Below the pieces are notes generated by a model. The model was not told the DNA's origin and did not search any database. It was given only the letters and a program-made list of their open reading frames with translations. Both the position numbers and the translations under genes were made by a program. Positions 26,426-43,756 of a stretch of 55,616 nucleotides of DNA are shown one piece after another. The stretch's first letter is position 1. Each line of letters starts with the position of its first letter. The DNA is taken from assembly GCA_021789945.1 (NCBI GenBank), contig JAJYIS010000003.1, forward strand, positions 1 through 55,616, written 5' to 3'. This DNA is from Thermoplasmata archaeon. GTDB lineage: Archaea; Thermoplasmatota; Thermoplasmata; UBA10834.

Positions 26426-27061
26426 TCATTTCAGGAGGTCCATCGCCGGGCCCACGAGGAAGTACGCTCCGAAGACCATCATGAGCGCTCCGCAGATCCC
26501 GAAGATCGCCTCGTGGACGAGCGGGGTCCAGAGATGCTTCGTCCTGAACACGACAACCGAGGTCAGCGTGTACCACCCGAGATCGCAGCTCCAGTGGACC
26601 AGTGCGAACACCACCACGATCATCGGGCCGAAGAACTGGGCGTTCAGGACGAGCACCGCGCCTATCGTGGCCCACCAGAGGAGGAAGTATGGGTTGCCCG
26701 CCGTCGTGAGCGCGCCCGCGGTCACCGGCCCGTACGAAATGAGGTCATGCTCGGGGTCCGCGGACATCTTCCTCGATCGTATCATGGACGCCCCCAGATA
26801 GAGCAGGAGCGTGCCCCCGACCAGTCCGATTCCAAGCTTCACGAAGCTGTTCTCGAAAACATAGTCGAGGCTGACGATTATCAGGGCCATGAGCGGAAAT
26901 TCGACCAGGCCGTGGCCGATGGCTATCTTGACCCCGGCTGTCTCGTCCTTGTACCCCTTGGCGACCGCGGCCGCGAAGACCGGGCCCGGGGTCATCACGC
27001 CCGACAGCGAGATGACGACCGTCGATGCGAAGAACACCCAGATGTCGGTGAACTCGACCAC
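26426..27061 (-). CDS. LysE/RhtB family amino-acid exporter
   Basis: 211-residue membrane protein with six hydrophobic helices. The N-terminal helix ends in SLSGVMTPGPVFAAAVAKGY, which contains the TPGP signature of the LysE superfamily, followed by GVKIAIGHGLVEFPLMALII and later LTTAGNPYFLLWWATIG, also characteristic. Members export amino acids such as lysine, threonine or homoserine lactone; the substrate here is unknown. It ends 16 bases from the convergent nadA stop. Its TATA box is around 27085 (GTCTATTTAACC). Confidence 0.85.
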   Translation of the reverse strand: MVEFTDIWVFFASTVVISLSGVMTPGPVFAAAVAKGYKDETAGVKIAIGHGLVEFPLMALIIVSLDYVFENSFVKLGIGLVGGTLLLYLGASMIRSRKMSADPEHDLISYGPVTAGALTTAGNPYFLLWWATIGAVLVLNAQFFGPMIVVVFALVHWSCDLGWYTLTSVVVFRTKHLWTPLVHEAIFGICGALMMVFGAYFLVGPAMDLLK

Positions 27062-27118: not shown

Positions 27119-27128
27119 TATCAAATAG
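27119..27128 (+). promoter_or_regulatory. TATA-like element ahead of the sRNA candidate
   Basis: TATCAAATAG lies 24-33 bases before the C box at 27152, the correct spacing for transcription starting at the sRNA candidate. Confidence 0.45.
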
Positions 27129-27150
27129 CCGTATTGAGATAACACGGAAT

Positions 27151-27213
27151 CGTGATGACAAGAGGGTCAGCTGAGGTCCTCCGGGATCCGTGATGAGCCC
27201 TATGAGTGCTGAA
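27151..27213 (+). ncRNA. candidate C/D box guide sRNA
   Basis: The stretch has all four boxes of an archaeal methylation-guide RNA in order. C is GTGATGA (27152-27158), D' is CTGA (27171-27174), C' is GTGATGA (27190-27196) and D is CTGA (27209-27212). The C-D' and C'-D guide intervals are both exactly 12 bases, the usual archaeal length. The D'-C' spacer of 15 is longer than typical. The guides are CAAGAGGGTCAG and GCCCTATGAGTG. A terminal stem beyond the boxes is weak. A TATA-like element sits at the right distance upstream. The next gene starts 30 bases after box D, so the RNA might be processed from its leader. Targets were not identified. Confidence 0.62.
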
Positions 27214-27242
27214 TCGGCCTCGGATTGTCAGGGAGGGTGAAC

Positions 27243-27683
27243 ATGTCGCGCCCAGCGGCCTCTGGACTCCCTCCCCGCCCATTGGGCGTCATCCTGCTCG
27301 CGCTGCTGCAAATCTGGCACGGCCTATGGTACATCGTTCTCTCGCTCGTCTTCCTTGCCGTGTCCGCCGCGACCTCGACCTTGAGCGGCGCGATCAGCGC
27401 CCTCGCCACATTGATCGCGCTCGTGTTCTTCGTCCTCGGCATATACGCACTCTTGCTCGCGAGGGGATATGTAAAGGGCTATGAGCGGGCCAGGCGACGC
27501 GGGATCGGCGTCGCCCTCTTCGCGATTTTCCTGGTCGCGGTGGAGATCGTGATCACGAAGCTCCAGGTCTTCCTGCCCGACTCGCCCTTCTGGACGGTCG
27601 TGGGCAACATCATCATAATATGGTACCTGAGACGCGATGCGACCAGGCGATACTTCACGGCCAGGACCGCCGCGAGGAGATAG
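27243..27683 (+). CDS. integral membrane protein of unknown function, 146 aa
   Basis: Four hydrophobic segments are predicted: PLGVILLALLQIWHGLWYIV, LVFLAVSAATSTL, a long ALATLIALVFFVLGIYALLLA, and IGVALFAIFLVAVEIVITKL; a short hydrophobic stretch and a basic tail (RRDATRRYF) follow. The start at ATG 27243 is preceded by GGAGGGTGA, one of the best ribosome sites in the window, so the ORF-track start at TTG 27225 is unlikely. No family was recognised. The gene may share a transcript with the C/D box RNA candidate just upstream. Confidence 0.6.
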   Translation: MSRPAASGLPPRPLGVILLALLQIWHGLWYIVLSLVFLAVSAATSTLSGAISALATLIALVFFVLGIYALLLARGYVKGYERARRRGIGVALFAIFLVAVEIVITKLQVFLPDSPFWTVVGNIIIIWYLRRDATRRYFTARTAARR

Positions 27684-36050: not shown

Positions 36051-38225
36051 ATGCGGCGTGAACACATCCAGGCGGTGTCGTCGGCCTTGCTTCTAACCTT
36101 CGTTGTGTTCATCCCGCATCACGTCGACGACACCGCCATCGCCCCGAAGTCGGCCTCACTGGTCTCGTCTCCAGGCCTGCTGATCTCCGAGTTTTACCCC
36201 CGCGGGTTCTGCGACGACGAATACATCGTTCTGTCGAACCAGTGCGGGACCGCTATCGACCTGAAGGGCTGGAACCTGACGGACGGCGAAGGAGTGCTCA
36301 GTTTCGCCTCCGACGTATGGCTCACGGACGGGGAGTCCTTCTCCATCTCATGGAACCAGAGCTCGTTCTGGCAGGCGTATGGGAGACTGCCGGAGGTATC
36401 CATGGACTCGACGGAAGCCGCGAGCGTCATCCGTTCGTCCGGCAGCTTCAGGCTGGGGGATTCCGGAGACTCGATGGCCCTCAGCTCCCCCCAGGGGCGC
36501 CTGGTCGACGCAGTGATCTACGGGTCCACGAGCGAGACCTCCCAAGGATGGTCGGGCGACCCGATGCCGGCGCTCAAGCAGGGCGAGGTCGCCAAGAGGG
36601 TCAGCTCCGCGGGGGCGCTGCTCGACACCGACTCCATGCTTGACTGGATGCCGTTTCGAGAGTTCAGGTACGGCTATACGGACCTCCAGAGCGGCAGCAT
36701 CGACATCGCGGCCGGGAACATCACGACCTTCGTAAGCCCCGACAATTCGCAGGACATCGTGCTGTCAGGGATAGGGCATGCCAGCAAGAGCATCAGCGCA
36801 TGCTCGTACGAGTTCTCCTCGGCGCCGGTCACAAAGGCACTCATCGAGGCGAGGCAGCGCGGGACGGCGGTCCGGCTGCTCGTCGACGGCTCGCCCTCAG
36901 GGGGCATGTCCGAGGGCGAGCTCGCATGCCTTTCCGTCCTCTCGCGGTCCGGGATCGATGTCCGCGCCGTCAAGGGGAACACATCGTCTGGGGTGGTCCA
37001 GCACACCGGCGCTCTCCACGCGAAGTACATCGTCATCGACTCGCTCGTCACGATCGTCATGTCAGAGAACCTCGTCGAGCAGGGCATGCCGACCGACAGG
37101 GTCTTCGGCAACCGCGGCTGGGGTGTCGAGATCCGGGACTCAAGGGCCGCGAGGCTCGTCCTGGACGTGTTTGAGGCAGACTCAAGGCTCTCCAGGAGGG
37201 ACGTCGTCCTTTGGCCCAACTGCCCACTGTTCAACGGCTCTGCGGAGCTGCCCAAGGCCCCGGACCAGAACCACACGCAGGAACTGTTCGAGCCGCTGGT
37301 GAATTCAGAGCCTGCGCGCATCACTCTCTGTCTCTCCCCGGACATCTCGGTCCAGCGGCCGTATCTCGCGCCGCTGATCGAATGCTCCCGCAGGTTCGTC
37401 GGCGAGCAGTTCCAGGCCGACCTCTGGTGGAAGGAGAGATGGAACAACGAATCGATTGTCAGCCCACTCGTCTCGGCCCTGGAGTCATCGCTCAGGGCCG
37501 GCGGGAGCGCGAGGCTGCTGCTCGACTCCTCGTGGTACAACGTTCCAGGGAACGGCGCGGTCGCCGACAGTCTCAGGGAGAACACGACGTTCGCCGGGAT
37601 GGACGGCGAGTTCGCGCTCCTCAATCCCGCCAGCCCTATCACCGCCCTGCACAACAAGGGCGCCGTGATCGACGGGAGAACGACATTGATATCGAGCAAC
37701 AACTGGGTCTTCGCATCGTTTGCCAGGAACCGCGAGCTGGGCGTCCTGGTGTACTCCGTCGAGGTCGCAGACTACTTCACCACGGTCTTCGAATCTGACT
37801 GGAACCCGGACAGGACACCTCCCGTCGCGGACGCGGGGGAGGATATCGAGATGGCCGCGGGCGAGACCGTCATGATCACCTCTGGGCGGTCGTTCGACGA
37901 CCGCGTGATATCCTCAGTCGCATGGGACACGGACGGCGACGGGTTCGCGGAGTCCTGGAACCGGTCGATCGACTACACGGCGAGCGTCCCCGGAGACCAT
38001 CGGATCGTGCTCACCGTGGAAGATTCGTGGGGGAACGCCGCGACCGACGAAATCATCGTGAGCGTGATTGTCCCGGATGGCCCTGGGCGAGCAGGCCATG
38101 GCGGGCTCGTCGGCCTGGAATGGCTCGCTCCGATCGTCCTCGCCGCAGCATACGTCGCATTCAGGAGACGGCGGCCTGCCGGGGAGGCGCCTTCGCGGAA
38201 GCTTAATCATCGACCTAAGGCGTGA
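36051..38225 (+). CDS. exported lamin-tail / phospholipase-D-like / PKD protein, membrane-anchored
   Basis: 724 residues. A signal-like N-terminus (VSSALLLTFVVFIPHH) is followed by a lamin-tail domain (about 45-150, LLISEFYPRGFCDDEYIVLS; DLKGWNLTDGEG). Then come two phospholipase D half-sites: HAKYIVID at about residue 323 and HNKGAVID at about 534, both complete H-x-K-x4-D. A PKD-like beta domain (about 590-675, PVADAGEDIEMAAGETVMIT) and a C-terminal helix LEWLAPIVLAAAYVAFRRRR anchor it. Both catalytic HKD motifs being intact argues for an active phosphodiesterase, acting on nucleic acid or lipid outside the cell. It follows tpiA by 56 bases and carries many N-x-S/T sites. Confidence 0.82.
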   Translation: MRREHIQAVSSALLLTFVVFIPHHVDDTAIAPKSASLVSSPGLLISEFYPRGFCDDEYIVLSNQCGTAIDLKGWNLTDGEGVLSFASDVWLTDGESFSISWNQSSFWQAYGRLPEVSMDSTEAASVIRSSGSFRLGDSGDSMALSSPQGRLVDAVIYGSTSETSQGWSGDPMPALKQGEVAKRVSSAGALLDTDSMLDWMPFREFRYGYTDLQSGSIDIAAGNITTFVSPDNSQDIVLSGIGHASKSISACSYEFSSAPVTKALIEARQRGTAVRLLVDGSPSGGMSEGELACLSVLSRSGIDVRAVKGNTSSGVVQHTGALHAKYIVIDSLVTIVMSENLVEQGMPTDRVFGNRGWGVEIRDSRAARLVLDVFEADSRLSRRDVVLWPNCPLFNGSAELPKAPDQNHTQELFEPLVNSEPARITLCLSPDISVQRPYLAPLIECSRRFVGEQFQADLWWKERWNNESIVSPLVSALESSLRAGGSARLLLDSSWYNVPGNGAVADSLRENTTFAGMDGEFALLNPASPITALHNKGAVIDGRTTLISSNNWVFASFARNRELGVLVYSVEVADYFTTVFESDWNPDRTPPVADAGEDIEMAAGETVMITSGRSFDDRVISSVAWDTDGDGFAESWNRSIDYTASVPGDHRIVLTVEDSWGNAATDEIIVSVIVPDGPGRAGHGGLVGLEWLAPIVLAAAYVAFRRRRPAGEAPSRKLNHRPKA

Positions 38226-43669: not shown

Positions 43670-43756
43670 GCCGAGGTAGCTAAGCTCGGTTTAAGGCGGT
43701 AGCCTCGAGAGCTACTGGTGCTCGTCACCACGGGAGTTCAAATCTCCCCCTCGGCG
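43670..43756 (+). tRNA. tRNA-Ser(CGA)
   Basis: 87 nucleotides folding as a class II tRNA. The acceptor stem is GCCGAGG/CCTCGGC with discriminator G73, as in serine tRNAs. The D-arm is GCT/GGC, the anticodon stem GTAGC/GCTAC and the anticodon loop CTCGAGA with anticodon CGA (reads UCG). A long variable arm GGTG/CACC and a T-arm GGGAG-TTCAAAT-CTCCC complete it. CCA is not encoded. No intron is seen. Confidence 0.95.

Follow-up and report, generated by a model that had tools for sequence, protein, structure and literature searches.

A candidate dual-guide C/D box sRNA of Thermoplasmatota with predicted targets at elongator pre-tRNA-Met C34 and 23S rRNA C1920

Archaeal C/D box small RNAs (sRNAs) with a guide for elongator tRNA-Met have been described, such as sR-tMet of Haloferax volcanii (Rfam RF02163), for whose action on the tRNA-Met precursor Joardar et al. 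(2011) is reportedly the source. The Haloferax sRNA is reported to act on elongator tRNA-Met while the intron is still present, guiding Cm34 (PMC5372725; PMC4033218). A second known RNA, sR41 of Pyrococcus (Rfam RF01126), has the 23S G1909-equivalent as its proposed target (PMC2584109). A third, sR3 (Rfam RF01133), also comes from Pyrococcus. Bacteria, on the other hand, use a stand-alone protein enzyme, TlyA, whose 23S site is C1920. TlyA is described as a 23S and 16S 2'-O-methylcytidine methyltransferase in PMC12805891 and PMC5778110. Finally, tRNA-targeting sRNAs are reported usually to have one guide with no target and to use just one of the two (PMC7994747).

The locus studied here lies in the window, a 55,616-nt stretch of contig JAJYIS010000003.1 from a Thermoplasmata archaeon (host genome 2.0 Mb, 152 contigs, 88% complete). 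The whole sRNA gene covers 27152-27212 of the forward strand in the order C-guide-D'-spacer-C'-guide-D. Box C (GTGATGA, 27152..27158) is followed by a 12-nt D' guide, CAAGAGGGTCAG (27159..27170), box D' (CTGA, 27171..27174), a 15-nt D'-C' spacer, GGTCCTCCGGGATCC (27175..27189), box C' (GTGATGA, 27190..27196), a 12-nt D guide, GCCCTATGAGTG (27197..27208), and box D (CTGA, 27209..27212). The first-pass annotation had read the same boxes and the same two 12-base guide intervals, and the sequence agrees with it base for base. Element and homologues alike carry RUGAUGA as C/C' and CUGA as D/D' in the order C-D'-C'-D; the R position of box C is G or A among homologues with its other bases invariant, and boxes D', C' and D are kept. 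Moreover, a fibrillarin gene is present in the organism's own genome and in four relatives.

The comparison with the known RNAs is one of shared halves. The D guide GCCCUAUGAGUG is identical in the Rfam consensus of sR-tMet, and the element has the function that defines this RNA (a predicted D guide for C34 of intron-containing elongator pre-tRNA-Met). The D' side differs, being a predicted 23S C1920 guide in the window element, as does the architecture around the spacer. Since the element scores 19.9 bits against a gathering threshold of 50, we file it under the same function and not as a family member. Likewise, the D-side consensus of sR41, GAGCCCUAUGAGcgCUGA, is nearly identical to that of the element, whereas the D' side is unrelated and the score is 29.5 against a gathering value of 54. 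The likeness to sR3 consists of the linear box sequence and GGGUC in the D' guide; the guides differ over most of their length and the score is 30.3 against 41, although one homologue (L009) lies just above gathering (41.4 against 41). We rejected sR3 as the same RNA and attribute the resemblance to the boxes and GGGUC. Within the window as a whole, the sole gathering-level Rfam match is a tRNA-Ser(CGA) at 43670-43756.

Short boxes may arise randomly, and the simplest doubt is that their arrangement here is due to chance or that a protein-coding feature was misread as an sRNA. Four boxes at such spacings had been judged unlikely by chance at first sight, and this is borne out: the pattern occurs once within the window and is absent, in strict or relaxed form, from 200 first-order Markov shuffles of it. 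A BLAST search with the 161-nt region gave matches in 34 of 60 relatives, with most alignments ending at the box-C and box-D limits, that is, with an isolated conserved block of about 60 nt. The conservation in close relatives that had been proposed as a check is thus present. Boxes and guides are kept, the D'-C' spacer ranges from 3 to 16 nt and its hairpin covaries; across families, conservation is confined to boxes, guides and hairpin stem. We count a chance arrangement as already refuted by this conservation and the target matches, and give it next to no probability. The identification as a C/D box guide sRNA, made initially from the letters, holds on the boxes, the conservation and the 10-bp tRNA and rRNA targets of the two guides.

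The search for guide complements suggested by the first-pass annotation (8 or more bases in rRNA or tRNA) gives 10 bp for each guide, with the +5 position covered. For the D guide, GCCCTATGAGTG forms 10 Watson-Crick pairs, with no mismatch, with ACUCAUAGGG of elongator tRNA-Met, both in the organism's own genome (G000:C110:51788-51892) and in G009. ARAGORN finds a 31-nt intron in the tRNA-Met of both. The anticodon arm reads UCGGA-CUCAUA, intron, A-UCCGG, which places the junction after A37 and ahead of position 38. The duplex (ACUCAUA followed by GGG) takes in 7 nt of exon 1, A31-A37, and the GGG that opens the intron. Wobble C34 lies opposite the guide base that is fifth from box D. The D guide therefore most likely directs 2'-O-methylation of C34 on the intron-containing precursor (predicted Cm34), and, as the duplex spans the splice site, methylation should come before splicing. 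The mature tRNA-Met was considered as a target and rejected, since by eye only 7 pairs are left once it is spliced. Hence the original expectation of rRNA or tRNA targets stands for both guides, with the amendment that the D target is an intron-containing pre-tRNA and not a mature RNA.

When the genome was searched for exact 11-mers of both guide complements, nothing turned up beyond the sRNA and a single chance match at window position 36594; the true duplexes are 10 bp long. The chance match, a second exact 11-nt complement of the D' guide (36594-36604, reverse strand), probably lies within a coding region.

We compared guide and intron over 151 Thermoplasmatota genomes of the class. Introns of tRNA-Met were gathered by pattern. 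A second, independent pattern served for the D guides; it left the four intron-facing bases free and still returned GGG nearly everywhere. The D guide is found in 57/67 genomes whose intron starts with GGG, against 0/25 with another start (Fisher P = 8e-15, a value that overstates independence because the genomes share ancestry). This is comparative evidence for joint evolution of a trans-acting guide with the bases that open a tRNA intron. The non-GGG cases are spread over several families (f9, f12, f18). In two f23 cases (G095, G146) the guide complement is GAG, which in G095 can pair with GGG via one G-U pair. Ten GGG-intron genomes lack the D-guide pattern, and 22 genomes have a D guide and no recognised intron. 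A bolder reading is that one sRNA couples Cm34 of tRNA-Met to Cm1920 of helix 69 and, because the guide reads across the splice junction, keeps the intron, along with the three bases that open it, fixed in evolution. We regard this as possible yet rather doubtful; if true, lineages in which the intron start is lost or altered lose the guide as well.

The D' guide CAAGAGGGTCAG forms 10 Watson-Crick pairs with UGACCCUCUU of 23S rRNA, the fifth base being C1920 (E. coli numbering, from alignment to E. coli K-12 rrlH). This site is on the 3' strand of 23S helix 69. Helix 69 is a subunit bridge helix at the interface of the ribosomal subunits. An exact pattern found the site in 22 of 60 relatives and in the organism's own genome, the remainder having no pattern match; it reads CCCUCUU except in two genomes with CUCUCUU (G025, G055). 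A scan of the SSU rRNA for guide targets gave no good site. The D' guide thus most likely directs 2'-O-methylation of 23S C1920, a prediction drawn from pairing and conservation. About 3% of shuffled guides reach a match of at least 10 bp when a single guide is considered, and it is therefore conservation that carries the case. In the literature, archaeal methylation hotspots are said to include helices 68, 69 and 71; our search found no paper naming archaeal Cm1920, and such data may exist elsewhere.

That chance rate leaves room for a reading in which only the tRNA-Met guide works and the match to C1920 is a coincidence or a relic, that is, a single-guide tRNA sRNA as in other archaea. This would fit the habit of tRNA-targeting sRNAs reported in PMC7994747, and it would fit other families as well, where the D guide is kept with D' guides that are unrelated and seem unconstrained. 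Yet AAGAGGGTCAG hardly varies in many families, with spacers that run from 3 to 16 nt, whereas a guide of no use would not stay so constant, and the D' target is itself a nearly invariant functional rRNA site. We consider the single-guide reading unlikely and keep the one with two working guides. The unrelated D' guides elsewhere indicate that conservation reaches further for the tRNA-Met half, and that the C1920 half is a module carried by some of the Thermoplasmatota. In L019 (G008) and L022 (G020), GAAGAGGGTCAG is replaced by a variant, GAAACGGGTCAG, with poorer pairing to 23S rRNA; the assemblies of G008 and G020 yielded no corresponding 23S stretch. The homologues L168-L178, from other families that keep the D guide, combine the tRNA-Met D guide with highly variable D' guides, which are probably orphan guides drifting freely.

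With a strict pattern, both guides occur together in 26 class genomes. They are also found on 38 GTDB contigs, all from Thermoplasmatota-type archaea where the label reaches that level (Thermoplasmata, Candidatus Thermoplasmatota, Thermoplasmatales, Aciduliprofundum, DHVE2, Methanomassiliicoccales); the remaining labels read just Euryarchaeota/archaeon. The sRNA type and the D guide are already known, and the union of this D guide with a C1920 guide looks peculiar to Thermoplasmatota as judged from these occurrences. The element is a slightly variant newcomer to a known kind of C/D box sRNA.

The 15-nt D'-C' spacer had been held against the element. The archaeal norm is a few nucleotides, and homologues of other families have 3-4 nt. 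The length is as stated, and the spacer is a conserved hairpin, which may explain it. It folds as a 5-bp hairpin (GGUCC/GGAUC in the window element, where the helix persists via one G-U pair) in 17 homologues, with 95.1% of cells paired, three pairs changed on both sides and 13 cells changed on both sides. The covariation score is 0.428 against 0.149 in shuffles (0/500 shuffles reach it), and shifting the register of the hairpin abolishes the signal. A weak terminal stem, the other objection, is indeed weak in the window element, but by eye it is clear in some homologues.

The sRNA probably has its own promoter. The TATA-like box noted upstream is confirmed as TATCAAATA at 27119..27127 (forward strand), ending 24 nt before box C, with CAAATA beginning at -30 relative to box C; a TATA-like A-T rich element sits at -28 to -32 in most homologues, other families included. 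Downstream is an ORF for a membrane protein with no Pfam match (27243..27683, forward strand), whose ATG at 27243 is 30 nt past box D. This distance, given correctly in the first-pass annotation, had led to the idea of release from an mRNA leader, and the ORF does follow the sRNA in several same-genus genomes. The element might then be a structured part of this mRNA's 5' leader, either processed out of it or working in cis. However, the adjacency is limited to the same genus, other genera keep the sRNA without the ORF, and the kept TATA box would start transcription at the sRNA 5' end. For these reasons an own promoter is likelier, and we hold the leader origin to be highly improbable. On the other side, a divergent LysE-type transporter gene (26426..27061, reverse strand), a neighbour outside the sRNA like the ORF, is kept upstream; LysE, NadA and an Hjc-like gene form the conserved surroundings of the sRNA within its family.

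Altogether, the comparative data make it very probable that the element is an archaeal C/D box sRNA with transcription of its own, and that both guides work, one for pre-tRNA-Met C34 and the other for 23S C1920. From these data we infer transcription, RNP assembly, methylation and its order relative to splicing as follows. The sRNA would assemble with L7Ae, Nop5 and fibrillarin, the spacer hairpin supplying a stem for the internal motif. The D guide would base-pair with unspliced elongator pre-tRNA-Met and place a 2'-O-methyl group on wobble C34 ahead of splicing, and the D' guide would pair with the 3' strand of 23S helix 69 and direct the same modification to C1920. Where bacteria use a protein enzyme, the element would select the same base by guide RNA, and an archaeal Cm1920 is thereby predicted. 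As a mixed tRNA and rRNA dual guide, it would be an apparent exception to the one-sided tRNA guides reported in PMC7994747. Two predicted targets can now be assigned to an unannotated RNA present across many Thermoplasmatota, for which literature searches returned no C/D sRNA study.

A further set of C/D box sRNAs was seen in family f7 (L152-L155, L157, L159). The complement of their D guide, AGATTTTGAGT(G/T/A), is ACUCAAAAUCU, a sequence that resembles the anticodon loop of tRNA-Leu(CAA), with C34 as the putative target.
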